Positions 24,675 to 44,103 of a stretch of DNA of 64,000 nucleotides are shown piece by piece. The notes beneath the pieces were generated by a model, which ran no database searches, was not told the origin of the DNA, and saw only the letters and a list, made by a program, of their open reading frames with translations. The position numbers and the translations under genes were made by a program. Numbering within the stretch: position 1 is the stretch's first letter; every line of letters starts with the position of its first letter. The DNA comes from Fundicoccus culcitae (lineage in GTDB: Bacteria; Bacillota; Bacilli; Lactobacillales; Aerococcaceae), in NCBI RefSeq assembly GCF_024661895.1, contig NZ_CP102453.1:3038001-3102000 (forward strand), read 5' to 3'.

Positions 24675-24756
24675 AAAAAATCCGATTTTTTAATTATAGT
24701 GGGACCGGCTCAAACTAATTATTGAGTCGCTATAATTAAAAAATTGGATTTTTATT
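24675..24756. terminator. Bidirectional terminator between yhaM and the Gx-family gene
   Basis: AAAATCCGATTTTTTAATTA at about 24678 begins a 23-bp arm (ending TAG) that pairs with an arm starting at CTATAATTAAAAAATTGG (24731), with one G-U pair. It serves the convergent yhaM and Gx genes. The left arm and the loop start ATAGTGGG recur in the 51615-51681 terminator. Confidence 0.88.
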
Positions 24757-25339
24757 TTTCATTAGGTTCAAGTTCTTGATTAAGCCAAGATTCTTGTTTT
24801 TGACTTAATGAAAGTTCTGTATGATAAACACGTAAAATAGAAATGCGATTAAGTAAATAATTACCACCAATCCCCACAGCAAAGCCAGCAAGTATCCCAC
24901 TAATAGATAGGACAGGTAAGTAGTTTAAGACTGACCACGAACGAGCCATGAGCGCGGCAGCACTTAATTGTCCCACATTATGCATAACACCACCTAAAAT
25001 GGAAATACCAATGACACTAACCCGTTTAGGACCTAATTGTTTAGTTAATAACATCATGAAGTAACTTAACATACCGCCCGCAAAACTGTAAATAAATGTA
25101 GATAAAGTACCACCTAACAATGCCGTTAAAATAAATTTCAATAGAACAACTTGAATACTATATTTAAAAGGTAAAGTAAATATCGCAATAACAGAAATTA
25201 GATTCGATAAACCTAGTTTTGCTCCTGGGGCAAAGGAAAATGGAGAAGGAATAAATCGTTCTAAAAGCCCAATAATAACAGCTTGTGCAGCAAGCGTAGC
25301 AATATAAACCATCATCCGATTACTACTTTTAACTCCCAT
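24752..25339 (-). CDS. Gx transporter / heptaprenyl-diphosphate-synthase-component-I family membrane protein
   Basis: A membrane protein of 195 residues with five or six hydrophobic segments, of the family named Hpre_diP_synt_I or Gx transporter. Typical stretches are PSPFSFAPGAKLGLSNLISV and ISILGGVMHNVGQLSAA. The fold resembles ECF S-components. Family members are encoded in the flavin-based extracellular electron transfer loci of Firmicutes, where I recall the name EetB; I am not certain of that name. GGAGG lies before the ATG. The neighbouring PplA-like, ApbE and NusG-II genes in this window make an electron-transfer role worth testing. Transport of an isoprenoid or vitamin precursor is the alternative. 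Confidence 0.8.
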   Translation of the reverse strand: MGVKSSNRMMVYIATLAAQAVIIGLLERFIPSPFSFAPGAKLGLSNLISVIAIFTLPFKYSIQVVLLKFILTALLGGTLSTFIYSFAGGMLSYFMMLLTKQLGPKRVSVIGISILGGVMHNVGQLSAAALMARSWSVLNYLPVLSISGILAGFAVGIGGNYLLNRISILRVYHTELSLSQKQESWLNQELEPNEK

Positions 25340-25377
25340 GTCAACCTCCTTACGTTTTTAGTAGACATTTTAACTAT

Positions 25378-25404
25378 GAAAAAAGCACCAATGGAGGTGC
25401 TGTT
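25378..25404 (-). terminator. Terminator of tRNA-Arg
   Basis: Read on the minus strand, AGCACC-TCCATT-GGTGCT is followed by TTTTTTC, directly downstream of the tRNA gene. Confidence 0.82.
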
Positions 25405-25412
25405 TCTTTGAA

Positions 25413-25484
25413 CGTCAACGGAGGGAATCGAACCCCCATCACAAGAACCGGAATCTTGTGTGATATCCATTACACTACGCTGAC
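25413..25484 (-). tRNA. tRNA-Arg (anticodon CCG)
   Basis: On the minus strand the gene folds as a cloverleaf. The acceptor stem is GTCAGCG/CGTTGAC with discriminator G. The anticodon arm is CAAGA-TTCCGGT-TCTTG, giving anticodon CCG (reads CGG). The T arm GGGGG-TTCGATT-CCCTC is present. CCA is not encoded. Confidence 0.95.
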
Positions 25485-25492
25485 CTAACTTT

Positions 25493-25521
25493 ACTATAAT
25501 ACTAACAAAATCATGTTTTTG
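25493..25521 (-). promoter_or_regulatory. Promoter of tRNA-Arg
   Basis: On the minus strand TTGCAA is followed after 17 bp by TATTAT, a few bases upstream of the tRNA 5' end. The -35 lies inside the terminator hairpin of the upstream secreted-protein gene. Confidence 0.6.
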
Positions 25522-25542
25522 CAAGTGCAAAAGCATGATTTT
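25507..25542 (-). terminator. Terminator of the unknown secreted-protein gene
   Basis: AAAATCATGCTTTTGCA pairs with TGCAAAAACATGATTTT (one mismatch) around a two-base loop, 15 bp after the stop codon. Confidence 0.75.
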
Positions 25543-25556
25543 GAGGGAGTAGAGTT

Positions 25557-26261
25557 TTAATTGCCAATATATCCTTCAGTGTGAGATAGTTGCATGAGTG
25601 CTGATGAACTACCATCCCCATGAATTTCATCTACTTGTATGATACCATATTGAGGAGCAAAGTAAAAATGTTTGGTGATTCCTTGTCCATTAGGATTGGA
25701 ATTTTCTTCAATTAAATAGACATTCTCGTAACTTATATCACCGATTGTGACAATTGGGAAATTATTAATAATTGTTCGTGTTAATTCCTTATGATATCCA
25801 GATTGATAAGAATAACCAACGGATAAATTCGATGGAATTATCAGCGAATCCACTCCATCAGTTGCATCGCTGGAATAACGTAAATCTTGTACATCATTAT
25901 ATTCATCGAAATAGGCTAATTCATACAAACCACTCTCACGTTTTTGGTAAATAAATGCTTTTGCTTGATCACCTGTAAACTCAGTGACTTGGAAAATTCC
26001 ATTAGCATCTGAAGTATATTCCATGATAATGTCCCTAACGGTAAAATTTGAACCATTACCTAAGTATTGATATTTTACAAATTGAGCATATGGGATAAAA
26101 GCATCAAATGCATCACCATTTGATTGAATGTATTCTGTTTCTACATCTTCATTTTCTTCCGTTTGCGCATGAACATTTAGTTGTGAATAAGGTAAAATGA
26201 ATATGGCTATAATCAATGAGATGACAATGTTTTTATCTATTTTTGTTGTTATATTTAACAT
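25557..26261 (-). CDS. Secreted protein of unknown function
   Basis: I do not recognise this 234-residue protein. Residues 1-32 form a signal peptide (charged start, core NIVISLIIAIFILPYSQL, cleavage likely after VHA). The mature part begins acidic and continues with alternating short strands rich in Tyr and Asn, without cysteines or an anchoring motif, so it is probably released or loosely bound. AAGGAGG is correctly placed before the ATG. Its promoter region contains a large palindrome (26291-26334). It lies between hit (divergent) and tRNA-Arg with its own terminator, so it is probably monocistronic. Confidence 0.75.
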   Translation of the reverse strand: MLNITTKIDKNIVISLIIAIFILPYSQLNVHAQTEENEDVETEYIQSNGDAFDAFIPYAQFVKYQYLGNGSNFTVRDIIMEYTSDANGIFQVTEFTGDQAKAFIYQKRESGLYELAYFDEYNDVQDLRYSSDATDGVDSLIIPSNLSVGYSYQSGYHKELTRTIINNFPIVTIGDISYENVYLIEENSNPNGQGITKHFYFAPQYGIIQVDEIHGDGSSSALMQLSHTEGYIGN

Positions 26262-26290
26262 TTGAGTACCTCCTTAATTAAGCAAAATAA

Positions 26291-26334
26291 AGTTTAACTT
26301 CTTATCAAAAGTATTATATCATAAGAAGTTAACT
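26291..26334. promoter_or_regulatory. Palindrome enclosing the -10 box of the secreted-protein gene
   Basis: AGTTTAACTTCTTAT and ATAAGAAGTTAACT form 14-15 bp inverted arms around a 15-base centre containing TATAAT on the minus strand (26313-26318). An operator, or a hairpin, around the promoter is inferred. The rest of the 300-bp gap to hit shows only the hit promoter. Confidence 0.5.
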
Positions 26335-26506
26335 GATTAATGATGAATAATCGAAATAAGATTGAAAAACATCGTATTATATGAATAATTTATGAATTTA
26401 ATATGAAGAGTTATAGTTTGTTACTAAAGTCCAAAATTGATTTTTAGCTTTGATAGGTGCATTTTATGTGCAACTAGTCTTATAAAATGGAATTATAGTC
26501 AATTTA

Positions 26507-26515
26507 TGTTAAAAT
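26507..26515 (+). promoter_or_regulatory. Extended -10 promoter of hit
   Basis: TGTTAAAAT (TGn plus TAAAAT) lies about 46 bp before the hit start codon. No good -35 is visible. Confidence 0.45.
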
Positions 26516-26561
26516 ATTATTATTAGTTTAATGATTTATACGGAGATAGGAGACTATAATA

Positions 26562-26987
26562 ATGAATGATTGTGTGTTTTGTAAAATAATCGAAGGTGAC
26601 ATACCTTCTTCAAAAGTTTATGAAGATGAAAAAATATATGCATTTTTAGATATTTCGCAAGTGACAAAAGGTCATACTTTAATTGTACCAAAAGAACATG
26701 TTAAAGATATTTATGAATATGATGAAATACTTGCTGCCGATGTTTTTAGCCGCATTCCGATGGTAGCGCGTGCTTTGAAAAAAGCATTTCCTGATATGAA
26801 AGGCTTAAATATTGTTAATAATAATGAACCGCTAGCTTACCAATCTGTTTTTCATTCGCATTTTCATTTAATCCCACGCTATCAGGAAGATGAAGGTTTT
26901 GCTATGAAGTTCGAAAACAATCAAACTAACTACAACCAAGATGATTTATTGGAAATAGCTGATACAATCAATAAAAATATACAATAG
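26562..26987 (+). CDS. hit: HIT-family nucleotide hydrolase
   Basis: A 141-residue histidine-triad protein. Cys4 and Cys7 (DCVFCKI) are typical zinc-binding residues, and the catalytic triad motif is HSHFHLIPRY near residue 100. HIT proteins hydrolyse AMP linked to small molecules; the physiological substrate is unknown. The order hit, YtxH protein, prsA matches other Firmicutes such as Bacillus. GGAG lies upstream of the ATG. Confidence 0.93.
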   Translation: MNDCVFCKIIEGDIPSSKVYEDEKIYAFLDISQVTKGHTLIVPKEHVKDIYEYDEILAADVFSRIPMVARALKKAFPDMKGLNIVNNNEPLAYQSVFHSHFHLIPRYQEDEGFAMKFENNQTNYNQDDLLEIADTINKNIQ

Positions 26988-27000
26988 GAGCGTTAATATT

Positions 27001-27354
27001 ATGGCTGGATTTAAAAGTGGCTTTTTATGGGGAGCTGTATTCGGTGGAATGGCTGGTTTAATGAATGCGCCTGCCAGTGGACGTGAAACGCGACAAAACA
27101 TAAAAGATTTCATTGATCAAACAACGGATGATGTGAATGATGTACGATTCAAAGTGGATAATTTAAAAATGGCGATTGAACGCTTATCAACAGAAGGGCT
27201 ATCGAGTGCTTCAACAGCGTCAAAAGATATTCAAGTCTCAGTCCAACATTTTCAAGAGGAAACTAAACCTAGAATAAGACGAATTAAAGAGAAAGCAGAA
27301 AAATTACAAGAGTCAATTGATGAAAATGTTGAAAAATTTAATGAAAATTCCTAA
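27001..27354 (+). CDS. YtxH-domain membrane-associated protein
   Basis: A small protein of 117 residues with a glycine-rich hydrophobic start (SGFLWGAVFGGMAGLMNAPASG), the YtxH signature, followed by a helical charged part likely to form a coiled coil. Function is unknown for the family; some Bacillus members respond to general stress. It starts 13 bp after hit, with AGGAG before the ATG, and the two are probably co-transcribed. Confidence 0.85.
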   Translation: MAGFKSGFLWGAVFGGMAGLMNAPASGRETRQNIKDFIDQTTDDVNDVRFKVDNLKMAIERLSTEGLSSASTASKDIQVSVQHFQEETKPRIRRIKEKAEKLQESIDENVEKFNENS

Positions 27355-27391
27355 AGATTTTTGGATTCACTTTATCTTATATCGGATTAAA

Positions 27392-27400
27392 TGATATAGT
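27392..27400 (+). promoter_or_regulatory. Putative prsA promoter (extended -10)
   Basis: TGATATAGT (TGn plus TATAGT) lies 46 bp before the prsA start, with a weak TTATCT 17 bp upstream. Confidence 0.45.
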
Positions 27401-27445
27401 ATTCATTGTTAGAAAAATTATTTTTGAATGGAGACGAAGTACTCA

Positions 27446-28444
27446 ATGAAAAAAAGTTTAAAGAAAATGGCTGTTATTGCTGCTTCATTAGTAGCTATTG
27501 GAGGCGTTGTATACTCTTCAACAGCAACTGCACAAAATGAAGGTGTGATTGCAACTGTAGGCGAACAAGAAATTTCTCAAGAGGAATTTTATCAAGAATT
27601 AAAAGCTGTTGCGGGTGACGTTACCTTAAGAACAATGATTTTAGAAATGGTTCTTGAACATAGTGTACCAGATGCACAAGCATTAAGAACATCAGCGGAA
27701 GAGGAAGTTAGTGCTCAAATTGATGAAGCGGGTGGTCAAGAAGTCTTTGATCAATTATTAGCTTATCAACAATTAGGTACAACTGAAGATTTTACCGAAC
27801 AAATCTATTTACGCAATCTCTTCCAAGCTGTCATTGAACAAAATACAGATATGTCTGACGCAGCCATTCAAAATTTCTACGACAATGAATATGCTCCGAC
27901 CATGGAAGCTCAACACATTTTAGTTGAAACTGAAGAAGAAGCTTTAGCCGTCATTGAACGTATCAATAATGGTGAAGAGTTTGATGCTGTAGCACAAGAA
28001 GTATCGTTAGATAGCTCAGCTTCAAACGGTGGTTTATTAAGTCCATTTACCACAGGTCAAATGGTTCCTGAATTTGAGGAAGCTGTTGTTAGTCAAGAAA
28101 ATGGTGAGATGACACAAGTGCCAGTTCAATCTTCATACGGTTACCATGTCATTCGTACAATTAATAATGGTACGAAAGCACCTTTAGATGAAATCCGTGA
28201 TGATGTGGAATTACAATACATTAATAGTAAATTAGAAGATTCAGCCTATGCATTTGGCATTATTGGTCGTTTAGTACAAGATGCTAACGTTCAAATTAAT
28301 GACGAAGATTTAGCTACTGCTATTGATGATTTACTAGCTATGGCAGCTCCAACAGAAGAAGAAGCAGCTACTGAAGAATCCGCAGCTACTGAAGAAACAG
28401 TAGAAGCTGATGCAGAATCTACTACTGAAGAATCTGCTGAATAG
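27446..28444 (+). CDS. prsA: PrsA-type parvulin foldase without lipobox cysteine
   Basis: A 332-residue extracytoplasmic peptidyl-prolyl isomerase that helps exported proteins fold. The parvulin domain is about residues 145-240: AQHILVETEEEALAVIERIN, NGGLLSPFTTGQMVPEFEEA and SSYGYHVIRT. The signal peptide (MKKSLKKMAVIAASLVAIGG...STATAQNEG) ends in an AxA-type site and contains no cysteine, whereas PrsA is normally a lipoprotein. This copy may be released, or kept at the wall by its acidic Glu/Ala/Thr-rich C-terminal tail (last 30 residues). The frame is open from 27428; the ATG at 27446 gives a standard signal peptide. Confidence 0.88.
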   Translation: MKKSLKKMAVIAASLVAIGGVVYSSTATAQNEGVIATVGEQEISQEEFYQELKAVAGDVTLRTMILEMVLEHSVPDAQALRTSAEEEVSAQIDEAGGQEVFDQLLAYQQLGTTEDFTEQIYLRNLFQAVIEQNTDMSDAAIQNFYDNEYAPTMEAQHILVETEEEALAVIERINNGEEFDAVAQEVSLDSSASNGGLLSPFTTGQMVPEFEEAVVSQENGEMTQVPVQSSYGYHVIRTINNGTKAPLDEIRDDVELQYINSKLEDSAYAFGIIGRLVQDANVQINDEDLATAIDDLLAMAAPTEEEAATEESAATEETVEADAESTTEESAE

Positions 28445-28466
28445 TTAAGTTTAAGAAATTTATTTT

Positions 28467-28507
28467 GAGGGGAGTAGCTAATTTGATTAGTTGTTCTCCT
28501 CTTTTGT
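28467..28507 (+). terminator. Terminator after prsA
   Basis: GAGGGGAGTAGCTAAT pairs over 16 bp (with G-U pairs) with ATTAGTTGTTCTCCTC around a TTG loop, then TTTTG. Confidence 0.78.
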
Positions 28508-28622
28508 AAATAAATTATTCGGCATTAAGATAATAGTACCAACTAGACAAAGAAAAATAATTAGTATATTATAAGACTATAATTTTTGAACTATCACAAT
28601 GTGATTAAAGGAGTGCAATTCA

Positions 28623-29888
28623 ATGGAAATGAAAAAGCTATTGACTAGAGGATCTTTGTTATTAGGATCCATGTTAGTTCTAGCCGCATGTGGGGATACA
28701 CAAACGCAAACTGAATCAGTTGAAGAGGCAACTAGCAGTGTTGTTGAATCAGTTGAAGAAGAAGTAAGTGTTGAGGTTGAATCTGTAGAAGTAATTGAAG
28801 AATCTGAAGAAGCATCTGAAGAATCAGAAGAAACAACTGAAGAATCAGAAGAAACATCGGAAGAATCAGAGGAAGCGTCGGAAGAATCAGAGGAAGCATC
28901 TGAAGAATCAGAAGAAACAACTGAAGAATCAGAAGAAACAACTGAAGAATCAGAGGAAGCATCCGAAGAATCAGAGGAAGCGATTGAAGAATCTGAAGAA
29001 GCAACTGAAGAATCTGAAGAAGCGACTGAAGAATCTGAAGAAGCAACTGAAGAATCAGTGAGCGCAACACCGGAAGCGTTAGTTTTACAAGATGGTGAAT
29101 ATACACTTGAATCTGATGCTGATGAGCATGGTTGGTCTAGTCGTTTCACATTAGTTGTAGCAGATGGAGAAATTACCGAAGTAAATTATGACATGGAAGA
29201 TGCTGACGGTAATTTAAAAACTGAAGATGAAGAATACAATCAAATGATGGAAGATGTTTCTGGAACAGCTTTTGCTGATGCAGTAGAAGAATTAACTGCG
29301 CAATTATTAGAAACACAAAATCCTGATGAAGTAGATGTTGTATCTGGTGCGACTGACACAAGTGAAGACTTTAAAGAGTATGCGCAATTATTAGTTGATG
29401 CTGCAGTCGAAGGAAATGAAGAAACAATTATGGTATCTGCAAATGCTGAATTACAAGATGGTGAATATTCACTTGTAACGGATGCTGATGAACATGGTTG
29501 GGCACATCATTTCACAATAGTAGTAGCAGATGGAGAAATTACCGAAGTAAATTACGATATGGAAGATGCTGAAGGTAATTTAAAAACTGAAGACGAAGAA
29601 TACAATCAAATGATGGAAGATGTTTCTGGAACAGCTTTTGCTGATGCAGTAGAAGAATTAACTGCACAATTATTAGAAACTCAAAATCCTGATGAAGTAG
29701 ATGTTGTATCTGGTGCAACTGACACAAGTGAATCATTTAAAAAATATGCTCAATTACTGATTGAAGCGGCTATTGAAGGAAATGAAGAAACAATTGAAAT
29801 CTCTTTAGCGGATGAAGAAACCGAAGAAGCAAGTGATGAATCGGATGAATCAGCTGAGTCTGAAGAAGAATCAACCGAATCTGAATAA
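28623..29888 (+). CDS. pplA: PplA-like lipoprotein with two FMN-binding (flavinylation) domains
   Basis: An acidic lipoprotein of 421 residues. The signal peptide ends in lipobox VLAAC (Cys23). Residues 59-142 are twelve heptads EESEE(A/T)(S/T/I), a long flexible acidic spacer. Two FMN_bind domains follow (about 155-270 and 277-392), each starting DGEY and ending with DVVSGATDTS; the Thr of SGAT (Thr244, Thr366) would carry FMN covalently. The tail is again acidic. Listeria PplA has this layout and relays electrons outside the cell after flavinylation by an ApbE enzyme. An ApbE gene lies at 34637-35752. AAAGGAG precedes the ATG, and the gene is monocistronic with its own terminator. The function is inferred from domains. 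Confidence 0.88.
   Translation: MEMKKLLTRGSLLLGSMLVLAACGDTQTQTESVEEATSSVVESVEEEVSVEVESVEVIEESEEASEESEETTEESEETSEESEEASEESEEASEESEETTEESEETTEESEEASEESEEAIEESEEATEESEEATEESEEATEESVSATPEALVLQDGEYTLESDADEHGWSSRFTLVVADGEITEVNYDMEDADGNLKTEDEEYNQMMEDVSGTAFADAVEELTAQLLETQNPDEVDVVSGATDTSEDFKEYAQLLVDAAVEGNEETIMVSANAELQDGEYSLVTDADEHGWAHHFTIVVADGEITEVNYDMEDAEGNLKTEDEEYNQMMEDVSGTAFADAVEELTAQLLETQNPDEVDVVSGATDTSESFKKYAQLLIEAAIEGNEETIEISLADEETEEASDESDESAESEEESTESE
28797..29048 (+). repeat. Twelve tandem 21-bp units encoding EESEE-heptads
   Basis: The coding DNA repeats every 21 bp in a GAAGAATCWGARGAA pattern with synonymous and Ala/Thr/Ser/Ile changes. Such arrays change length easily by slippage. They also create long spurious frames on both strands. 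Confidence 0.9.
29091..29760 (+). repeat. 366-bp tandem duplication of the FMN-binding module
   Basis: The segment from CAGATGGAGAAATTACCG (29161) recurs at 29527, giving a period of 366 bp (122 codons). Long stretches are nearly identical even at third positions, which points to recent duplication or gene conversion. Confidence 0.88.
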
Positions 29889-29915
29889 ATCACCCTATAA
29901 TAAGAAAATATTTAT

Positions 29916-29944
29916 ACCACTCTATTTTTATAGAGTGGTTTTTT
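29916..29944 (+). terminator. Terminator of the PplA-like gene
   Basis: ACCACTCTAT-TTTT-ATAGAGTGGT is followed by TTTTTA. The group II intron begins four bases later. Confidence 0.92.
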
Positions 29945-29947
29945 ATG

Positions 29948-31820
29948 GTGCGCCCGGCATGGGTGACAACTTGGTGGTGAAAGTCCACTACAGGCTTGGC
30001 AGTAGGAACTGTTAGCTAAAGGCAAGGGTGTCCATCGTGAGGTGGAATCTGAAGGAAGCCGGAGGCAAACACTCGCACTGACGAACAGAAACTTCATATT
30101 AAGGCTGAACAGGGACGGACGAGCTTGCCTTACAAAGTAAAGTCCAATACTGCACGAATCCCATACAGTAGATGAAGCAGTGACATGAGTGGAAGGTTGT
30201 CATTCTTACCCGGGGAGGTCTCATCAACGATAGTTAATCGTAGTAACAACGAATGATGAGAAGTCAGCAGACGTCATAGTACTAGCCTATAGCTAGGAAG
30301 GACAGAACAATAACAATTTTGAAAATCAAGGAGGTGGATACGTCACCGATAACGCAGACAACATCGTGATTAAGTTCGAAGAGATGGCTGCCTACAGAAG
30401 GATATGCTGGAAGCAAAAAGATATGTAGGAGTGCGGAGGTGTCGTAGCACAGATATGAATAAACAAAATGATATCTTACTGATTGACCAAGTAGTCAGTC
30501 AAACAAACATGGAACAAGCTATCGCTAAAGTTCGCAAAAATAAGGGAGCACCCGGTGTAGACGGGATGACGGTTAATGAACTAGACGAACATATGGCGAC
30601 TTATGGGTCAGCCATTGTTCGAAAGCTCAAGGCTGGAACCTATCAACCACAACCTGTGAAACGAGTTGAAATACCCAAAGCTAACGGTGGAGTCCGCCTT
30701 TTGGGTATTCCAACGGTAAGGGATAGAGTCGTACAACAAGCGATACTTCAAGTGATTGACCCGATAATTGACCCGCATTTCTCTGAATTTAGTTACGGTT
30801 TTCGAAAAGGTCGCAACGCTCATCAAGCGGTGGCACGAGTCATCAGTTACTACGAAGAAGGTTATCGTGTAGTAGTAGACTGTGATTTGAAGAATTATTT
30901 CGATACCATCAACCATCAAATTCTTAGAAATAATCTTGAATACTATATTCAGGATAAAGTTGTTTTAAGAATTATCTGGAACTTTCTTAAATCAGGCATC
31001 CTGGACCAAGGCTTTTATGTTGAAACGGATATGGGAACACCACAAGGAGGCCCCTTATCTCCGTTACTAGCGAATGTCTATTTACACCATTTAGACAGGG
31101 AGCTTGAGCGTAGAGGTCATAAGTTCGCTCGATACGCGGATGATTTTGTCATCTATGTAAAGAGTAGACGGGCAGGCGAACGTGTGATGGAAGGTATTAC
31201 AGACTTTATTGAAGGGAAATTACGTCTAACGGTGAATAAGGAAAAAAGCCGAGTGACGACACCCACCCAATCTAAATTCCTGGGGTTTCATATTCATAAT
31301 AGCACGGGAAAGTAGGATGCCGACCTAGTCAGTCGGCTAAACAAAAGTTTCGCACCAAGCTCAAGAAGTTAACTCGTCGTAATCGACCTGGGTCATTTGA
31401 AGATATAGTAGTAGAAATCAATCGAGTGACTGTAGGGTGGATAAATTACTACAAAATTGGTTTTATGAAATCTTTCATGATAGAAACTCAGAGCTGGTTG
31501 AATCATCGATTGCGACAGCTCATCTGGAAAAGATGGAAGAAAGTATCCACTCGGTATACACAACTTAGGCGACTAGGCATAGACCATGATGATTCGCTCA
31601 AGATGGCAGGGAGTCGTAAGGCTTATTGGAGACTTTCACGGAGTGAAATTTTACACCGAGCCATCACAAACAAAAGGCTCGCTATCTGGGGATTGAAGGA
31701 TCTAACCTACTTATATGAGCGATAAAAGATATTTAAGTTATTGAACCGCCGTGTACGGAACCGTACGCACGGTGGTGTGAGAGGTCGACTAGTCAATTAA
31801 TGACTAGTCTCCTACTCGAT
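29948..31820 (+). mobile_element. Group II intron with (frameshifted) maturase
   Basis: The element opens with GTGCGCCCGGCATGGGTG, a conserved group II intron 5' end. About 450 nt of structured RNA follow, then the maturase reading frame (30404-31725), then domain V (about 31743-31782, CCGCCGTGTACGG-AA-CCGTACGCACGGTGG with its two-base bulge) and a domain VI hairpin (GACTAGTC/GACTAGTC) ending near CCTACTCGAT. The 3' end is accurate to a few bases. It sits directly after a terminator hairpin, a target habit known for class C introns, but I did not assign a class. Splicing does not require the maturase to be encoded in cis if a relative supplies it. Confidence 0.9.
30404..31725 (+). pseudogene. 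ltrA: Group II intron reverse transcriptase/maturase, frameshifted
   Basis: The first frame (30404-31315) carries the reverse transcriptase with KGAPGVDGM, GTPQGGPLSPLLAN and the catalytic ARYADDFVIY, and stops after FLGFHIHNSTGK. The continuation VGCRPSQSAKQKFRTKLKKL and the maturase domain GWINYYKIG...LTYLYER (to 31725) lie in another frame. Adding one G to the GGG at 31306-31308 restores a single protein of about 440 residues. A one-base deletion, or a sequencing error in the G-run, explains it. No HNH endonuclease domain is present. The initiator may be 30404 or the ATG at 30455. Confidence 0.85.
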
Positions 31821-31857
31821 TACGATAAATTCATCAGTTCAATAAATATTACAAAAC

Positions 31858-31909
31858 GCTTCTTTAACACAGATTTTATTTCAAATAGAATACAGTTCAT
31901 TTAAGAAGC
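31858..31909 (+). promoter_or_regulatory. Promoter of the Sip-like gene inside an inverted repeat
   Basis: TTAACA (31864-31869) and TAGAAT (31886-31891) are 16 bp apart. GCTTCTTTAA (31858-31867) and TTAAGAAGC (31901-31909) flank them as inverted arms. The arm sequence resembles that at 26291-26334. The promoter lies just downstream of the intron, so the gene keeps its own promoter. Confidence 0.6.
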
Positions 31910-31989
31910 TGTTCAAGTGGTTGGAATCTTCTAATGGCTATGTTAGACTTTGAATTGTGAAAAAATACTTTATAAAAGGTGAATTAAAT

Positions 31990-33321
31990 ATGAATTTCAA
32001 GAAAAAAATCTGGATAAGTGCTTCGTTACTGGCTTTAATGAATTCTGGCCTAGCGGTTAGTGCCAATGAAATTACAGACGTTTGGCAAGCTCGTCAAGTA
32101 GAAGAAGTATTGGCAGAGATTGAATTCGATCAAGATAATAATTTATTATATACGATTAAATATGGAGATACATTAAGTGTTATTTCAGAAGCTTTAGCGG
32201 TTGATTTAAGCATATTAGCTGAAATCAATGATATTGCAAATATAGATTTAATCTTTCCAGAAACACTTTTAACGGCTTCGTATGGGACTAGTCTAAATCA
32301 AGAAGATGAATATATTGCTAGTCTAACGATTGAAACGCCTGAAGGAGAAGGTTTTGAAGTAAGTTTACCCGAAGAATTATCCGATACATTAACGGTTGAA
32401 GAACAAATCATTGTGGAAAATATAGATACACAAGCAGTAATTGAACCTACGGATGAAGTGGTCACTGAAGAAACCGTCGGTATCATTACTGAGGTTCCCG
32501 AATGGTCAACTGACAATATCATTGTTGGTGGAGCTCCTACTGATGAAATTGAAGAAATAGTCGTTGAAGAAGATTTGATTGTTGATGATACACCAGAAAC
32601 CATTGAAATCATAGATGAGTCTGCGGTTGATATCGTTGAAGAAGTAGACGATTGGGTAGAAGAAGAAGTCATCGTTGAAACACCAACAGAAGTTGTTGAA
32701 GCTGAGGAACCTGCTGTCGATGAATTACCTGTCGAAGAAGAACAACCTGTTGTCGAAGAACAACCCGTTGTCGAAGAACAACCTGTTGTCGAAGAACAAC
32801 CCGTTGTCGAAGAACAGCCTGTTGTAGAAGAAGAGCAACCCGTTGTCGAAGAACAGCCTGTTGTAGAAGAACAACCTGTTGTCGAAGAAGAGCAACCTGT
32901 GTATGAAGAAATCGTTCCTGAAGAGGAAATTATTGTTGAAGAACCTGTAACGGAACCAGCAACACCGCCATATGATCCAACCACAAATCCTCAAAATTCA
33001 GGATTATCATATTCGGCGGCTGCCTTTAAAGATCAAGTAGCCAGTGTTTATGGTGTCAATTCATTTAGTTCTTATCGTCCTGGTGACGGTGGTGACCATG
33101 GTCAAGGTTTAGCGGTTGATTTTATGGTACCTGTTGGATCTGATTTAGGGGATGCTATTGCAAATTATGCCATTAGCAATATGGGAGCAAATAATATTTC
33201 TTACGTTATTTGGGAACAACAAATTTATGGTTCTTGGAATCAATCATGGCAATGGATGGAAGACCGTGGTAGTTTAACAGCCAACCACTATGACCACGTA
33301 CATGTATCTTTTAATTATTAA
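31990..33321 (+). CDS. LysM-containing Sip-like surface protein
   Basis: A secreted wall-associated protein of 443 residues. A signal peptide (MNFKKKIWISASLLALMNSG...SANE) is followed by one LysM domain (about 50-90, YTIKYGDTLSVISEALAVDL) that would bind peptidoglycan. A long Glu/Val/Pro-rich region includes repeated VVEEQP hexapeptides. The C-terminal domain of about 105 residues (YGVNSFSSYRPGDGGDHGQG ... NHYDHVHVSFNY) closely resembles that of group B streptococcal Sip. Its HxxxxxxxD and DHVH residues are arranged like zinc ligands of peptidoglycan peptidases, so hydrolase activity is possible but unproven. The frame opens at GTG 31957, but AAAAGGTG marks ATG 31990. Confidence 0.85.
   Translation: MNFKKKIWISASLLALMNSGLAVSANEITDVWQARQVEEVLAEIEFDQDNNLLYTIKYGDTLSVISEALAVDLSILAEINDIANIDLIFPETLLTASYGTSLNQEDEYIASLTIETPEGEGFEVSLPEELSDTLTVEEQIIVENIDTQAVIEPTDEVVTEETVGIITEVPEWSTDNIIVGGAPTDEIEEIVVEEDLIVDDTPETIEIIDESAVDIVEEVDDWVEEEVIVETPTEVVEAEEPAVDELPVEEEQPVVEEQPVVEEQPVVEEQPVVEEQPVVEEEQPVVEEQPVVEEQPVVEEEQPVYEEIVPEEEIIVEEPVTEPATPPYDPTTNPQNSGLSYSAAAFKDQVASVYGVNSFSSYRPGDGGDHGQGLAVDFMVPVGSDLGDAIANYAISNMGANNISYVIWEQQIYGSWNQSWQWMEDRGSLTANHYDHVHVSFNY
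32730..32900 (+). repeat. Tandem 18-bp repeats encoding VVEEQP
   Basis: About eight units of CAACCTGTTGTCGAAGAA with synonymous changes and occasional extra GAA codons. They form the proline-rich wall-spanning spacer of the Sip-like protein. Confidence 0.88.
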
Positions 33322-33340
33322 ATAAAATATCTTTCAGAAA

Positions 33341-33379
33341 AACTACATTAAAGCATAAGGCTTTAGTGTAGTTTTTTTG
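33341..33379 (+). terminator. Terminator of the Sip-like gene
   Basis: AACTACATTAAAGC-ATAAG-GCTTTAGTGTAGTT with a following T-run. Confidence 0.92.
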
Positions 33380-33430
33380 TTTCCTTAAATATATTGGCTC
33401 AACTATTTTGTTTAAAACAAGTCATATTAC

Positions 33431-33488
33431 TTAACAGATTAATGTCTATAAGCTATGATAAATAAAAGTCGCAAACGCTTAAACGCTC
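33431..33488 (+). promoter_or_regulatory. Promoter and LacI-type operator of the KdgT-like gene
   Basis: TTAACA (33431-33436) and TATGAT (33454-33459) are 17 bp apart. At the predicted start lie two direct AAACGCT units (33474-33480 and 33482-33488) within CGCAAACGCTTAAACGC, a cre-like or KdgR-like LacI-family site. Repression by a sugar-acid regulator or CcpA is inferred. Confidence 0.6.
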
Positions 33489-33519
33489 TGTGAACATACC
33501 CATTTTAAGGAGGAGCAGT

Positions 33520-34452
33520 ATGGTTAATTTTTTAAAGAAAATACCCGCAGGTACATTTTTAGTTCCTTTGTTGTTAAGTGCCTTGCTTTACACTCTGTGG
33601 CCCAATTTATTTCGTATAGGTGGTGTAACTGAAGCCTTATTAGGCGGAACAAGTACTAACTTTATTATAGGCATGTTAACCTTTTGCTCGGGTCTAATGA
33701 TTGATTTTTCTGAAATTGGTGCTTTATTCAAACGTCATGGTATTCTTGTTCTTGTAAAAATAGCGATTAGTTTTGCGGTTAGCTTATTATATATGAATAT
33801 TTTTGGACAAGAAGGAATCTTTGGTATTAGCGCCTTAGCATTTACCGTTGGTATGTTTAGTATGAACCCAGCCGTCTATATTGCTTTAGTATCAGAATAC
33901 GGGAAAAAACAAGATCAAGCTGCATTTGCCTTGACGGCTTTATTCAGTATTCCCGTCTTTCCCATGTTAACGTATGCCGTTGCAGGAAGTGGAGAAGTGG
34001 ATTGGATGCCAATTGTTTCGACTTTTATCCCATTAATCATAGGTATCGTACTCGGGAATTTAGATAAAGACTTTAATTCTATTTTTGGAACAGGCGTTAC
34101 CGTTTTGACACCTATCTTAGGTTGGAATTTAGGTCAATCCATGAATTTAGTTGAAGCCTTACAATCTGGCTTACCTGGCATAATTTTATGTCTCTTTTTC
34201 TACCTCTTGATGTCTCCCTTGTTCATCGTTGATTATAAAGTTTTGAAAAACGATGGAATTGTTGGATTATCCATGACAACAGCGGCAGGGTCGTCGACCG
34301 CCTTTCCTGCTGTAATTGCTGCTTCCAGTTCCGTATTAATGACCTATGTTCCATCAGCTGTTGCACAGCTTTTAACTTTAGCCATCATAACCATTGTTTT
34401 AACACCGATTATTACGCGCTACCACTATTCAAGAGTCTATCCTAATCATTAA
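33520..34452 (+). CDS. kdgT: 2-keto-3-deoxygluconate permease (KdgT family)
   Basis: A 310-residue permease with about ten membrane segments. The family signature KIPAGTFLVPLLLSALLYTL opens the protein and GLSMTTAAGSSTAFPAVIAA lies near the C-terminus. KdgT family members import 2-keto-3-deoxygluconate from pectin or uronate breakdown by cation symport. No other uronate genes are nearby, so the substrate is inferred. The frame opens at a GTG (33490), but AAGGAGG marks the ATG at 33520. Confidence 0.88.
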   Translation: MVNFLKKIPAGTFLVPLLLSALLYTLWPNLFRIGGVTEALLGGTSTNFIIGMLTFCSGLMIDFSEIGALFKRHGILVLVKIAISFAVSLLYMNIFGQEGIFGISALAFTVGMFSMNPAVYIALVSEYGKKQDQAAFALTALFSIPVFPMLTYAVAGSGEVDWMPIVSTFIPLIIGIVLGNLDKDFNSIFGTGVTVLTPILGWNLGQSMNLVEALQSGLPGIILCLFFYLLMSPLFIVDYKVLKNDGIVGLSMTTAAGSSTAFPAVIAASSSVLMTYVPSAVAQLLTLAIITIVLTPIITRYHYSRVYPNH

Positions 34453-34489
34453 TACCTATCTCTAAAAAAAATTAACATTTATTTCTAAT

Positions 34490-34538
34490 AAACGAATGCG
34501 AGGATACTTTGTGGTATTCAAGCCTTCGTTTGTTTTTT
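34490..34538 (+). terminator. Terminator after kdgT
   Basis: AAACGAA and TTCGTTT with inner GC and GGATAC/GTATTC pairs form a hairpin followed by a T-run. Confidence 0.75.
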
Positions 34539-34594
34539 CAACCAGATGTTTGGTTGAAATAGTTATTCAGGAGATGCAATCAATTCTCAATATA

Positions 34595-34603
34595 TGTTAA
34601 TAT
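34595..34603 (+). promoter_or_regulatory. Putative apbE promoter (extended -10)
   Basis: TGTTAATAT provides TGn and a TAATAT box 33 bp before the apbE start. Confidence 0.4.
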
Positions 34604-34636
34604 ATGTACAAACAATCTAATAGGAGTTTTTATACT

Positions 34637-35752
34637 ATGTCATTAACCAAAACCAAGCACATCATCTTTACGTTTTTAGTTATTTTTTTAGTCGGAAGTC
34701 AAACCATTGAAGCAAGCAATCAAGCAAGTTCTTCAGATGTAGATGTTACTTCTACAGCCTCACCAGTTGAAGAAGTTGAACCTTTGCCCGTAAGTTCTGA
34801 GCCTTTGACGCGTACGGAATCCATGCTACATACAGCGGTTCAAATACAAATTTATCATGAAGGTCAAGAAGAAGCGATGCAAGCAGCGTTTGATTATATG
34901 GCTGAGATGGAACGAAATTTTTCAACTAACTTAGAAGGCTCAGATGTTTACCGCATTAATCAGGCAGCTGGTCAAGAATTTGTCCAAGTGAATCCGGAAA
35001 CTTATGCCGTTATTGAAAGAGCTATTGAAATAGCTGAATTATCTGACGGGAAATTTGATATAACGATTGGAGCCATTACCAACTTATGGCAAATTGGTTC
35101 AGAAGATGCACGCGTTCCTTCCGATGAAGAAATTCAAGCGGCTTTAAGCAAAATTGATTATAAGAAAATAGCACTTGATCCGCAAAATCATGCGGTAATG
35201 CTTGAAGAAGAAGGTATGGTGATGGAGCTTGGCGGTATTTCCAAAGGCTATATCGGCGGCAGAATAGTAGACATTTTCAAACCGTATGGTATAACAACGG
35301 CCATTATTAATTTAGGGGGTAATGTTGTTGTGATGGGTAACTCTCCAACCAATGAAACAGGGTGGAATGTGGGGGTCCAAGACCCAGATAAATCACGCGG
35401 ATCTATTGTTGGTACGCAAAGAGTGATTGATGGTGCGGTGGTTACCTCTGGCATTTATGAAAGATACCTTGAGCAAGATGGACACCTTTATCATCATATA
35501 ATGGATCCTGAAACAGGCTATCCTTTGGATAATGAAATTAGTGGTGTGACAGTATTTGCTGAGACATCTTTTGATGGGGATTCTTATTCAACAGCTTTAT
35601 TCTTATTTGGTATCGAAGATGGAATTCAATTTGTTGAGCAAACAGACGGAATTGAAGCGGTCTTCATTGACAAGGATAAAGGGGTACATTTAACGTCGGG
35701 ATTAAAAGATACGTTTGAATTGACCAATGAAGAGTATCATATTGTCGACTAG
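34637..35752 (+). CDS. apbE: FAD:protein FMN transferase (ApbE/FmnB)
   Basis: A 371-residue extracytoplasmic flavin transferase that attaches FMN from FAD to a Thr or Ser in SGAT-type motifs of exported proteins. The N-terminus has a hydrophobic export signal (HIIFTFLVIFLVGSQTIEAS) but no lipobox cysteine. ApbE signatures are SDGKFDITIGAITNLW, ELGGISKGYIGGRIVD, INLGGNVVVMG, DGAVVTSGIYERY and the metal-binding FDGDSYSTALF near the C-terminus. The obvious target is the PplA-like protein 5 kb upstream, which carries two SGAT sites. AGGAG is ten bases before the ATG at 34637; an in-frame ATG at 34604 has no ribosome site. Confidence 0.94.
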   Translation: MSLTKTKHIIFTFLVIFLVGSQTIEASNQASSSDVDVTSTASPVEEVEPLPVSSEPLTRTESMLHTAVQIQIYHEGQEEAMQAAFDYMAEMERNFSTNLEGSDVYRINQAAGQEFVQVNPETYAVIERAIEIAELSDGKFDITIGAITNLWQIGSEDARVPSDEEIQAALSKIDYKKIALDPQNHAVMLEEEGMVMELGGISKGYIGGRIVDIFKPYGITTAIINLGGNVVVMGNSPTNETGWNVGVQDPDKSRGSIVGTQRVIDGAVVTSGIYERYLEQDGHLYHHIMDPETGYPLDNEISGVTVFAETSFDGDSYSTALFLFGIEDGIQFVEQTDGIEAVFIDKDKGVHLTSGLKDTFELTNEEYHIVD

Positions 35753-35773
35753 CAGTGATATGTATTAAAAAAG

Positions 35774-35816
35774 AAAAACCGAGCTTTCCCAATTGAGGGT
35801 TAAGCTCGGTTTTTTT
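35774..35816. terminator. Bidirectional terminator between apbE and the NusG-II gene
   Basis: AAACCGAGCTT (35776-35786) pairs with AAGCTCGGTTT (35802-35812). A- and T-runs on either side serve both convergent genes. Confidence 0.9.
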
Positions 35817-36225
35817 ATAAAGGCAGTATTAAGGGGTCTTCTTCCATTTCACCTTGGATTTCAATGACTAAGCCGTGGGGCAAACAAATAGCGGTTTGGC
35901 CAGGGTTTTGAATCCATCCTGTTCGAACACCAATTTGATCGGGACTATTATCTTCTTTAATCCGAATTTGATCACCTTGTTTTTGAATGATATTATACTG
36001 TCCCGTATTAGGGTAGTAGGTTTTTTCAAAATCTTCGGTGTCTTCCCCTAAAACAAAACGATCCACTTCTTGACCATTTATTTTGATTAAAGCGACAATG
36101 GCATGTTCGTCAGTATTTTTTGAATAAATAGCTGCCGTTACGATATTAGGTAAAAAAGAAATAAAAATACACAAAACAATGATGATGTAATCAAAAGGTT
36201 TCATTTGTTTTAATACTGATCTCAT
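35815..36225 (-). CDS. NusG-domain-II membrane-anchored protein (EetA-like)
   Basis: A 136-residue protein with one N-terminal membrane segment (YIIIVLCIFISFLPNIV, about 13-32) and an outside-facing beta domain of the NusG_II type (VALIKINGQEVDRFVLGE ... GWIQNPGQTAICLPHGLVIE). Members of this family are encoded in Firmicute flavin-based electron-transfer loci and in Rnf-like contexts; I recall EetA as the name in Listeria but cannot verify it here. It is convergent with apbE across a shared terminator, a neighbourhood that supports a redox role. AAAGGAGG precedes the ATG. Confidence 0.82.
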   Translation of the reverse strand: MRSVLKQMKPFDYIIIVLCIFISFLPNIVTAAIYSKNTDEHAIVALIKINGQEVDRFVLGEDTEDFEKTYYPNTGQYNIIQKQGDQIRIKEDNSPDQIGVRTGWIQNPGQTAICLPHGLVIEIQGEMEEDPLILPL

Positions 36226-40776: not shown

Positions 40777-41100
40777 GTGGCCAAAACAACAATGCAGGTT
40801 GTTGAATCAATTGAAAATCAAGCTCTTGAAATTGAGGCAGATTATGACAGACAGATTGAAGCCGTTGAACAATCTTATAAGCAACAATTAGAGGATCAAA
40901 AGAAAGCTTTAGAATCTTCGCGAGATTAAAAATTAGCTGAATTAGAGGACTCCTTAAAGGAGCGACTTGACCATGCCGAACAAGAGTTAGAAAGAGTATT
41001 AAACCGTGATCAAGAACGCATTAATCATGCACTTGAATCATCAAAAACGGACTACGTTCCACAAATTATTAAAGAGGTGGTGAAGCGATATGGCAATTAG
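40777..41100 (+). pseudogene. ntpF: V-type ATPase peripheral stalk subunit NtpF, interrupted by an in-frame TAA
   Basis: GAGGAGGTGA marks a GTG start at 40777. The frame reads MAKTTMQVVESIENQALEIE and on through a charged coiled coil to ALESSRD, then meets TAA at 40927-40929. The same frame continues without further stops, KLAELEDSLKERLDHAEQEL and on to the stop at 41098-41100, which overlaps the ntpI start. The total is 106 residues, right for the subunit G/H stalk protein. No ATG, GTG or TTG in the second half suits reinitiation, so the stalk helix is cut at residue 50. A single base change or sequencing error would explain it. Confidence 0.85.
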
Positions 41101-41849
41101 TTCTATGAACAAAGTAACACTTCTAACCCCTGAAAATTTAGTTGATGACCTATTGACAGAACTTCAAGGAATGCAACAAATTGAAATTATAAATTTAAAT
41201 GATCAAGATCCTTGGGATAAGTTAGATGACACAACTGAAGACATGTTAGATGAGTACGAAGAAAAATCTCAATCAATGACAGAACAAAGAGTGATGGATG
41301 ACTTAGAAAATCGTCTTCATCAAATTGAGCGGGCTATTGAATTAGCCAACCGATTTGCAGAAAAACCTTCTTTGATGAAAACGTTAAAAAACGGGAAACC
41401 TGAAGTGAGTTTTAAGCAAATTCAAAACCATGGTGAACAATTTAATGAAGATGAAATAGTAAACCATACCATTCAATTAGTTGAACGCCTAGACGAATTA
41501 GAAATTTTGATTGACGAGACGCGTGATCAAGTCAATGATTTAGAAAAATGGAAAAAATTAGAAATCACACCTAATAAGCTAAATAGTTTTAGTTATGTTA
41601 ATGGTGTTGTTGGTAGGGTGCCAAGCACCAATGAAGATAGTTTTATCAACTATTTAAAAGAAAACGATAATTATTTTTATGAAGTTGTCTTTATTGACGA
41701 TAATGACTATGGTGTGGTCGTTTTTAGTTACAATAAGGAAAACAGACAAATTTTAAATGATTTGAAACCTTATCAATTCCTCCCCTTTAAATATACCTCC
41801 GATATGTTACCAAAAGACCAGCTTGATGAATGGAACCAAACGATAGAAG
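41090..41849 (+). pseudogene. ntpI: V-type ATPase subunit I (NtpI), 5' part, interrupted by IS66-family element
   Basis: This part encodes the N-terminal cytoplasmic domain of subunit a/I (MAISSMNKVTLLTPENLVDD ... DEWNQTIE), mostly coiled coil that contacts the peripheral stalks. After codon 253 the element begins; the frame runs on into it and stops at 41896 after 15 foreign residues. Joining 41849 to 44112 restores an uninterrupted frame of 666 codons (DEWNQTIE-DAKTERKEIV), the usual size of NtpI, so the gene was intact before insertion. Confidence 0.92.
41842..41849. repeat. Target-site duplication, left copy (GATAGAAG)
   Basis: The 8-bp GATAGAAG is repeated at 44104-44111, directly outside the element. 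Eight base pairs is typical for the IS66 family. Confidence 0.95.
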
Positions 41850-41934
41850 GTAAGCGCCCAATAGTGAGGTATCTTCTTAAATTTACTCCGATTTAGTATG
41901 ATTAATTCATCAAACAAAAGGAGTGACAATAATA

Positions 41935-42279
41935 ATGATTGACTTTACAATTCCTGAAACACTTTATCTCATGCCTCGTTATTCGCCAGCTAACCAAGAT
42001 CGCCAACGTCTATGCACTTTGATTCAATCTAGTTCTGCTTTTAAACCTGATCATACCGCAGCCTATCTTTTTTGTAATTCTCGAAGAAACATTCTGCGAA
42101 TCATCTATTGGGACGGTTTTAGATTTACTGACTTAGTTTATCGATTGGAACGAGGGGGATTCGTTTGGCCATACACCGAACCGAAATTTATGGAAATTTC
42201 TCTTCAACAATTAGAACGTCTTTTACGAGGTGATACCTTGAACCCGCCTTTAGAAACCTCTTATATTTTCAACAAATAA
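41935..42279 (+). CDS. tnpB: IS66 TnpB accessory protein
   Basis: A 114-residue IS66 Orf2-like protein: MPRYSPANQDRQRLCTLIQS, then RRNILRIIYWDGFRFTDLVY and LERGGFVWP, all typical of TnpB. It is needed for transposition in IS66 elements, but its biochemical role is unclear. AAAGGAG lies 11 bases before ATG 41935; an in-frame GTG at 41923 falls inside that ribosome site. Confidence 0.92.
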   Translation: MIDFTIPETLYLMPRYSPANQDRQRLCTLIQSSSAFKPDHTAAYLFCNSRRNILRIIYWDGFRFTDLVYRLERGGFVWPYTEPKFMEISLQQLERLLRGDTLNPPLETSYIFNK

Positions 42280-42369
42280 TCGCTATATTTTTAGTGAATA
42301 ATCGCTAAATTTACTAGTAAATATATTCGGTATATGGTATAATGAGCCTAACGAAAAGAGGTGATAGAC

Positions 42370-44013
42370 ATGACCGAAAACGAACTTATTGGACTAGAAA
42401 TTTCAGAAATTTTAGAAAAATTTAACCAATTAGAATCCGAACTTGAAGCTGCGAATATAAAGATTGAACTCATGCGTCAAGACCTCGCAACCTATCAAAT
42501 AATGACTTATAGCCCTCGAAGAGAAACGATGATTTCGGAAGGACAAACGAATCTCTTCACGGATCCTTCCGAAGATATCTCGGAAGTTATCTCTCATGAG
42601 GAATATTCTAAACCAGAGCCCCCAGTTGTAGAAAAATCTGAAAAAAAAACAACAAAAGGCTCCAAGCCGCGCGAAAAATCCGTCGGAAGAAAAGATGAGA
42701 TTCTCAATCAGTATGTTCAAGAAGATGTCTATCATTACTTACCTGATGAAGAACAAGTCTGTCATGATTGTCACCATCCATTAAAATTAATTGGTCCAGC
42801 TCAAGTACAACAAGAACTTGTGTTTGTTCCTGCTCATTTCAAATGTGTTAATCATCATCAAATGAGCTATAAGTGTGACCACTGCTCATCACAAGCGGAT
42901 AAAGATCAATTTGTAAAATCTGAACTCCCTTCACTTCCTTTTGTGAATAGCTTTGGGTCGGCTTCTGTCGTTGCAGAGACGATTTATCAAAAATATGAAT
43001 TAAAAGTACCAGCTTACCGCCAAGAAAACCATTGGAGAAAATTGTTATTACCTTTATCACGAACCACTATTTGTCGTTGGCATATTAAAGCCTGTGAGTA
43101 TTATTTAGGCTTTATTTATCGAGCACTCCATGATGAAATACTCATGCATGATATTGCGCATATGGATGAGACCACCTTCCGTGTCCTAGAAAGTGACAAG
43201 CAACAAACTTTTTATTGGATACTTCAAAGCTCGCAACATCATGACCATAAAGTCGTGTATTTCTCCCACCAAGATGGGCGTGGAAGTGATAAGTTTAAGG
43301 AAGTCATTGGTAGCTTCGAAGGGACGATACACTGTGATATGTATGCGGTCTATCGCAGTGCTGATGAGTCAACCGAGAACCTAGAGTTGGCAGGTTGTTG
43401 GGCACATCTAAGGCGAAAATTCTTTGAAGCGAGTAGAGTTTCCAAAGGATTACCTAAGACAACAGCCGATGAGATTCTCACTATGATAAATACTATCTTT
43501 AGAAAGGAACGTGAATGGAAAGAGTTATCCATTGAGGAACGATTTAAGAAAAGGCAATTCATTCTTAAACGATTAATGGACAATCTCTTCAACTACATTG
43601 ATCAGTGTGCTGCCAACACCATCCTGAAAGACAAACTGAGTAAAGCGTTTAGTTATGCCAAAGAGTATAAAGCGTATTTCTACAACGTTTTAAAGGATGG
43701 GCGCTTAGAGCTTAGTAATAATGCAGCAGAACGCTCCATACGCACTGTAGTGATGGGACGAAATAATTATAAATTTGCGGCTACTTTTAACGGTGCTCAA
43801 GCAGGTGCAGTTATTCTCTCACTGATTGAGACAGCTAAATTACATGGTTTAGACGCAAAACAATACATTCAGTATCTTCTGACACACCTACCGAATGAGA
43901 GTGATTTAGCGACAGCTAAATTAGATCAATATATGCCTTGGTCTAATGAAATCAAAGAAGCCTGTTCTGCACAAACGGTGATTGGTGATGTCGTTGAAGA
44001 AAAAACAGCCTAA
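42370..44013 (+). CDS. tnpC: IS66 transposase TnpC
   Basis: A 547-residue transposase. The N-terminus is a leucine-zipper-like helix (about 5-45), then a linker, a zinc-finger domain (VCHDCHHPLKLIG ... YKCDHC) and the DDE domain. Catalytic residues are in HMDETTFRVLE, IHCDMYAVYR and SNNAAERSIRTVVMGRNNYK, with the conserved GCWAHLRRKFFEA between. The frame is intact. AGAGGTGA precedes ATG 42370. Confidence 0.95.
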   Translation: MTENELIGLEISEILEKFNQLESELEAANIKIELMRQDLATYQIMTYSPRRETMISEGQTNLFTDPSEDISEVISHEEYSKPEPPVVEKSEKKTTKGSKPREKSVGRKDEILNQYVQEDVYHYLPDEEQVCHDCHHPLKLIGPAQVQQELVFVPAHFKCVNHHQMSYKCDHCSSQADKDQFVKSELPSLPFVNSFGSASVVAETIYQKYELKVPAYRQENHWRKLLLPLSRTTICRWHIKACEYYLGFIYRALHDEILMHDIAHMDETTFRVLESDKQQTFYWILQSSQHHDHKVVYFSHQDGRGSDKFKEVIGSFEGTIHCDMYAVYRSADESTENLELAGCWAHLRRKFFEASRVSKGLPKTTADEILTMINTIFRKEREWKELSIEERFKKRQFILKRLMDNLFNYIDQCAANTILKDKLSKAFSYAKEYKAYFYNVLKDGRLELSNNAAERSIRTVVMGRNNYKFAATFNGAQAGAVILSLIETAKLHGLDAKQYIQYLLTHLPNESDLATAKLDQYMPWSNEIKEACSAQTVIGDVVEEKTA

Positions 44014-44014
44014 T

Positions 44015-44071
44015 ATGTTAAACTAACCTAGAATTTCTTCTGTCTGGGTTAGTTTAGCATGTTTATTTTTT
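44015..44071 (+). terminator. Terminator inside the IS66 element
   Basis: ATGTTAAACTAACC pairs with GGTTAGTTTAGCAT (one mismatch), then GTTTATTTTTTT. It would also reduce read-through into the rest of the ntp operon. Confidence 0.78.
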
Positions 44072-44103
44072 TATGGATAGATACCTCACTATTGGGCGCT
44101 TAC

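Follow-up and report, generated by a model that had tools for sequence, protein, structure and literature searches.

The locus examined here raises the question of what may become of a flavin-based extracellular electron transfer (EET) system when the genes for its electron input are gone. It lies in a stretch of 64,000 nucleotides (hereafter the window) of the Fundicoccus culcitae genome (G000), a single contig (C1) of 3,224,940 bases that is 99% complete. Four window genes spread over 11.5 kb encode an EetB-like membrane protein, a PplA-like lipoprotein, an ApbE-type flavin mononucleotide (FMN) transferase and an EetA-like protein, which an initial annotation, made from the letters alone, had described as a dispersed flavin-based EET (FLEET) set. 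Comparison with related genomes (G with a number) indicates that the four genes are the surviving part, still at its ancestral place, of a canonical Firmicute FLEET locus. We consider it probable that an input independent of quinone has taken the place of the quinone-dependent one of this locus, with the flavinylation half retained. A flavocytochrome and a protein with six FMN-binding domains, encoded together elsewhere in the genome, now probably load electrons in place of the deleted half.

Identity of the Four Genes

The matches of the four proteins to PF07456, PF04205, PF02424, and PF07009 all exceed the curated Pfam cut-offs, which bears out the families first named for them. The EetB-like gene (24752-25339, minus strand; PF07456, 155 bits), the only PF07456 gene in the whole genome, encodes a predicted ECF-S-type exporter subunit for flavin adenine dinucleotide (FAD), 66-69% identical to its counterparts at this site in G015, G005, and G020; Listeria EetB serves FAD export (PMC9973259). 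The PplA-like lipoprotein (28623-29888, plus strand) has the lipobox LAAC, a long S/T/E-rich linker and two FMN_bind domains (PF04205). Its two flavinylation sites (29334-29357 and 29700-29723, plus strand) both read DVVSGATD, so the two SGAT sites noted initially are present. It matches the NCBIfam PplA model NF041941 with 250 bits (E 2e-74) over about 270 residues, short of the cut-off of 325 bits.

The ApbE/FmnB-type FAD:protein FMN transferase (34637-35752, plus strand; PF02424, 288 bits) has an N-terminal signal segment. A longer open reading frame (ORF) starts at 34604, and we prefer the start at 34637 because AGGAG precedes it. Its best match among solved structures is 7esa (E 8e-92), with conservation along the length of the protein. 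We take 7esa to be Listeria FmnB. The FmnB structure has been described (PMC8906456). A second ApbE in the genome sits after an FMN-reductase gene and apparently starts without a signal segment, so that the window ApbE is the evident extracytosolic one. The EetA-like protein (35815-36225, minus strand; NusG domain II, PF07009, 95 bits) is 65% identical to the same-site EetA of G015; deletion of eetA in Listeria gave no EET phenotype (PMC9973259). Another NusG_II gene, beside lgt at G000:C1:2263519-2263941 (L031), contains two in-frame stops and represents a broken EetA paralogue.

An Ancestral Site Lacking Half of Its Genes

PplA was searched for in 60 related genomes and neighborhoods of up to 20 kb were read. 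This comparison of gene order, which the initial annotation had proposed, revealed the complete canonical set, in a common order and at the equivalent chromosomal site, in G015, G020, G032, and G005. The order in G020 and G032 is eetB, sec234, hit, ytxH, prsA, ndh2, dmkB, pplA, apbE, dmkA, a small gene, eetA, ctc, trmL, and serS, while G015 and G005 have the core eetB, ndh2, dmkB, pplA, apbE, dmkA, and eetA, followed by ctc, queG, trmL, and serS. Pfam identified the relatives' ndh2 product as Pyr_redox_2, that of dmkB as a polyprenyl synthetase and that of dmkA as UbiA (79 bits). Since relatives keep these genes, ordered alike, at that site, the gene set in the window is not due to chance.

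The window layout equals the G020 order without ndh2-dmkB and dmkA, with eetB on the opposite strand and with an extra block between pplA and apbE. The gap between eetB and pplA is filled by sec234, hit, ytxH, and prsA, and eetA lies divergently before ctc, in G020 and G032 as well; because these two genomes have a complete set, the hit-ytxH-prsA spacing is ancestral, and recent dispersal by rearrangement is ruled out. Accordingly prsA (27428-28444, plus strand), the ancestral left neighbor of ndh2/pplA, is the same neighbor in G020, G032, G014, and G006. With the full set at that site in relatives and the spacing ancestral, the window set can be read as a relict of a complete locus. The description as a dispersed FLEET set therefore stands as to origin, and tRNA-Arg, prsA, a group II intron, a LysM/Sip-like gene and a KdgT permease are interspersed as described, but the set is not merely scattered: it is the retained half of a locus, with a spacing that is not peculiar to this genome.

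In a tree of the window ApbE and those of the relatives, the window ApbE groups with those of G015, g21, G005, and others in the EET-locus clade, and the ApbE of G003, G022, and G033 belongs to another well-supported clade. Synteny, this tree and the PplA model support the earlier assignment of the genes to the flavin-based EET set of Firmicutes, in the sense of common descent.

Peculiar to the window genome are the loss of ndh2, dmkB, and dmkA and an insert at about 29.9-34.5 kb. The prsA-pplA intergenic stretch (28445-28622) corresponds to the place of ndh2/dmkB in G020 and G032, and the 62-bp stretch between apbE and eetA (35753-35814) to the place of dmkA in G015, G005, G020, and G032, where the order is apbE-dmkA-eetA. 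Searches with tblastn detected none of the three genes in the window, nor any remnant or pseudogene of them, consistent with the initial observation that ndh2 and demethylmenaquinone genes are missing from it. The insert separates pplA and apbE, which are adjacent in relatives, and contains the LysM/Sip-like gene, the KdgT permease gene and the intron (30031-31820, plus strand; Rfam matches) in a block reaching to about 34500. The reverse-transcriptase ORF of the intron is split into 303 and 99 amino acids, and the same split pair recurs at G000:C1:459828-461149 (L033), which makes this form multicopy in the genome; in a comparison with plasmids the intron matched sequences of Staphylococcus and others only in part.

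The loss extends beyond the site. The best match to an EET-type Ndh2 in the whole genome reaches only 24 bits, compared with about 470-1440 bits in 41 genomes of the family, and no UbiA/MenA protein in the genome scores above the Pfam cut-off; one sub-threshold UbiA match has no similarity to DmkA and was rejected as such. The initial annotation had stated that absence of a type II NADH dehydrogenase and quinone genes from the genome would speak against it, and this is largely what the search found. For DmkB the tblastn search covered the window only and found nothing, and no FmnA (ECF-T) was seen at the site itself. With neither an EET-type Ndh2 nor a UbiA/MenA protein passing the cut-off, a complete but scattered FLEET set is rejected, and the pathway known from Listeria cannot operate in its original form. 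Co-function of the retained half, i.e., FAD export, flavinylation and PplA, is still the best inference.

Canonical EET could still work if a non-homologous NADH dehydrogenase reduced scavenged external quinone that feeds PplA. Some lactic acid bacteria (LAB) use exogenous quinones for EET (PMC10746273), and the genome has flavoenzymes resembling HcaD, NADH oxidase and CoA-disulfide reductase, of which one is encoded next to an 82-amino-acid FMN_bind ORF. However, among the 28 Pyr_redox_2 matches the eight or nine candidates that were scanned resemble HcaD, CoA-disulfide reductase, NADH oxidase/peroxidase, MerA, or YpdA, and none is like the membrane Ndh2 of about 630 amino acids. Further, among the LAB tested, the species that reduced iron all had both ndh2 and pplA (PMC8837199). 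We regard this possibility as improbable.

Constraint on the Retained Genes

Loss of three genes and a mobile intron inside the cluster might suggest that the locus is decaying and no longer functional, and the in-frame stops of the second EetA-like gene point in the same direction. In opposition to this, the ORFs of PplA, ApbE, EetB, and EetA are all intact with flavinylation sites conserved, ApbE is conserved lengthwise against 7esa, and EetB is conserved as described above. Within PplA, the two FMN_bind domains show 87% identity over 118 residues and a dN/dS between them of 0.22, which points to homogenization or duplication in the rather recent past and to continued constraint. Simple decay is therefore unlikely, and of the explanations considered we give it the least weight. 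The identity between the PplA domains is 45-60% in family relatives.

Orphan PplA homologues in relatives took a different course. In G003, G030, and G019, which are without Ndh2, the pplA homologue still adjoins ctc, and its product has lost the flavinylation motif and gives no FMN_bind match. The ctc-adjacent homologues at L087:8680-10404, L162:416-1360, and L169:6834-8261 have kept lipobox and acidic linker with flavin site and FMN_bind match lost, and are possibly repurposed surface lipoproteins. Since the orphan PplA of these three genomes lost the motif and that of the window keeps both copies, we argue that the window PplA still carries flavin.

Candidate Flavinylation Substrates Elsewhere in the Genome

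The genome has 15 FMN_bind matches: two in PplA, six in the six-FMN protein, five in long proteins, and one each in a 130-amino-acid protein and the 82-amino-acid ORF. At least seven candidate flavinylation substrates besides PplA are thus encoded. The six-FMN protein (G000:C1:1013425-1015467; 680 amino acids) has an N-terminal membrane segment and six SGA[ST] sites. The long proteins (640-770 amino acids; positions 813814, 831137, 1257880, 1598676, and 2349896) have signal segments and one FMN_bind domain each. The protein at 813814, the only one of the five that was domain-scanned, combines FAD_binding_2 with FMN_bind; the other four we call fumarate-reductase-like from their size, FMN_bind site and a weak Pyr_redox_2 overlap. 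An Rnf or Nqr electron donor was rejected, as no FMN_bind protein resembles RnfG or NqrC judged by size and architecture only. The 82-amino-acid ORF beside its HcaD-like reductase (L027, G000:C1:846724-848330) and the anchored 130-amino-acid protein beside a TauE-type permease (L024, G000:C1:697094-698248) are possible flavinylation pairs.

With this many substrates, EetB and ApbE might have been kept solely to serve the fumarate-reductase-like enzymes and the six-FMN protein, with PplA on its way out and no EET by the locus itself. The five secreted reductase-like proteins and the six-FMN protein do require an extracytosolic ApbE, and the degenerate orphan PplA homologues of three relatives would fit such a course, as would G077, which retains a minimal ApbE-EetB-EetA cluster (L161:9913-12014) with PplA not at that place. 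But the window PplA keeps both sites under purifying selection, and the secreted reductases, too, require a membrane electron donor. This explanation is a serious minority candidate, which we judge rather unlikely.

A Flavocytochrome as the Candidate Electron Input

Directly upstream of the six-FMN gene lies the gene for a predicted NOX/MsrQ-like flavocytochrome of the NAD(P)H type (G000:C1:1012027-1013391; 454 amino acids). Its C-terminal FNR-type FAD/NAD domain matches PF00175 with 60 bits, and the protein matches the solved structures 8qt6/8qta nearly over its full length, in both the transmembrane and the FAD/NAD parts (E about 2e-14). Two pairs of histidines (81/95 and 162/175), suited to two hemes, are conserved in the orthologues of G003, G022, G033, G020, and G032, and not fully in that of G017. 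A second flavocytochrome, 45% identical, is encoded at G000:C1:2290616-2291953 (L152) with no FMN_bind neighbor; similar lone paralogues occur in G020 and G022.

The mechanism that we favor starts from an observed loss: ndh2, dmkB, and dmkA are missing at the site, and the genome as a whole no longer has Ndh2 or MenA-type genes, which removes the route from NADH through Ndh2 to demethylmenaquinone. By homology, EetB would export FAD, and ApbE would move FMN from FAD onto extracytosolic proteins, namely PplA at two sites, the six-FMN protein at six, the five fumarate-reductase-like enzymes and the 130-amino-acid protein. Electrons would then enter through the flavocytochrome, from NAD(P)H via heme to the string of FMN, and pass on to PplA and the secreted reductases. 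Because an input of this kind needs no quinone, it would also explain how dmkA and dmkB could go along with ndh2.

The distribution of the flavocytochrome in the family is consistent with such a replacement. Out of 77 family genomes, the 48 with an EET-type ApbE (at least 270 bits) formed the comparison set, in which a flavocytochrome was counted from 500 bits, both thresholds having been picked after the scores were known. It is present in five of seven genomes without Ndh2, one of which (G061) is only 77% complete, and in two of 41 with Ndh2 (Fisher p 0.0002, the genomes being non-independent); counted by genus, which gives the fairer figure, the numbers are 3/4 and 1/13 (p 0.02). In G003, G022, and G033, all without Ndh2, a single cluster comprises eetB, the flavocytochrome, a four-FMN protein, eetA, and apbE. 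G017, with neither Ndh2 nor a PplA match, has two flavocytochrome/multi-FMN pairs and a lone apbE, and G020 and G032 combine the complete EET locus with a flavocytochrome and a two-FMN protein. Taken together with the ApbE tree, this suggests that the flavocytochrome of G003, G022, and G033 is accompanied by accessory genes of another lineage, and that the window genome appears to reuse its old ones.

Several points weigh against this reading. The ferric-reductase domain of the flavocytochrome matches PF01794 with 26 bits, under the Pfam cut-off of 28. About 2 Mb separate the window genes from those for the flavocytochrome and the six-FMN protein, and we infer a functional link between the two places in this genome from the relatives; any cooperation of PplA with the flavocytochrome is conjectural. 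G003 has a degenerate PplA homologue despite its flavocytochrome, and G077 keeps ApbE-EetB-EetA with neither Ndh2 nor flavocytochrome.

More tentatively, and with somewhat less than even confidence, we suggest that within one Lactobacillales family a NOX/MsrQ-type flavocytochrome and multi-FMN string, sharing the same kind of exporter and transferase, took the place of the quinone input on more than one occasion, the window genome being an intermediate in which old genes serve the new input and PplA is rewired. In the best topology of a SerS tree the five genomes with a flavocytochrome and without Ndh2 do not form one clade, but the one-clade alternative is not rejected (approximately unbiased test, p 0.06), so that independent replacement is a suggestion only. 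In the open-licence literature we found no description of an EET input replaced by such a flavocytochrome in Lactobacillales.

If the favored reading is right, flavin-based EET would consist of an exchangeable electron-input module and a retained module for flavin export and flavinylation, with natural stages represented by the complete locus, both inputs together, old accessory genes with a new input, a compact new cluster and a flavin-less PplA relic. Genomes with pplA and apbE but without ndh2 should then count as neither EET-positive nor dead. Such strains would allow one to ask if PplA and secreted reductases receive electrons from an NAD(P)H flavocytochrome that works without quinone, and hence what multi-flavinylated proteins do, a role termed generally unclear (PMC8238504).

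Other Elements in the Window

Outside the EET site, in the region 41090-45352, an element (ORFs 41923-42279 and 42361-44013) seems to split the gene for V-type ATPase subunit I that heads an apparent ntp operon. From its sequence we take the element to be IS66-like. Near-identical ORFs occur at G000:C1:822263-824352.

Comparison with Known Systems

Over most of its length the flavocytochrome aligns with the SpNOX-type bacterial NADPH oxidase of PDB entries 8qt6, 8qta, and 8qq7. Unlike in that oxidase, a six-FMN gene follows here, and electrons are proposed to go to flavins, not straight to oxygen.

Compared with the Listeria monocytogenes EET locus (Ndh2, DmkA, DmkB, EetA, EetB, FmnA, FmnB, PplA), the window shares EetA, EetB, ApbE/FmnB, and a two-site PplA. 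It differs in that ndh2, dmkA, and dmkB, as well as any visible FmnA, are missing at the site, in that the set is not one compact operon, and in the long S/T/E-rich linker of PplA. Partial sets are known in LAB, where FLEET is complete in 11 of 38 genera and Lactococcus is without pplA only (PMC8837199).

MsrQ-like flavinylated systems (Meheust et al., 2021, PMC8238504) likewise have a ferric-reductase/MsrQ-type membrane protein, a C-terminal NAD-binding domain and an FMN_bind neighbor. Their apbE is typically in the cluster, as in G003, G022, and G033, whereas apbE and eetB of the window genome stand at the old EET site, about 2 Mb away, and the PF01794 match is sub-threshold. These systems are broadly conserved in Actinobacteria and infrequent elsewhere (PMC8238504), and eetB beside some of them has been described already (PMC9973259), as have the systems themselves, multi-FMN proteins and fumarate-reductase-like FMN_bind enzymes (PMC8238504). 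Six FMN_bind domains in one membrane-anchored protein are likewise in line with known multi-flavinylated proteins (PMC8238504, PMC10339131, PMC11334425), from which the present case differs only in the unusual pairing of such a protein with a relict EET accessory set.

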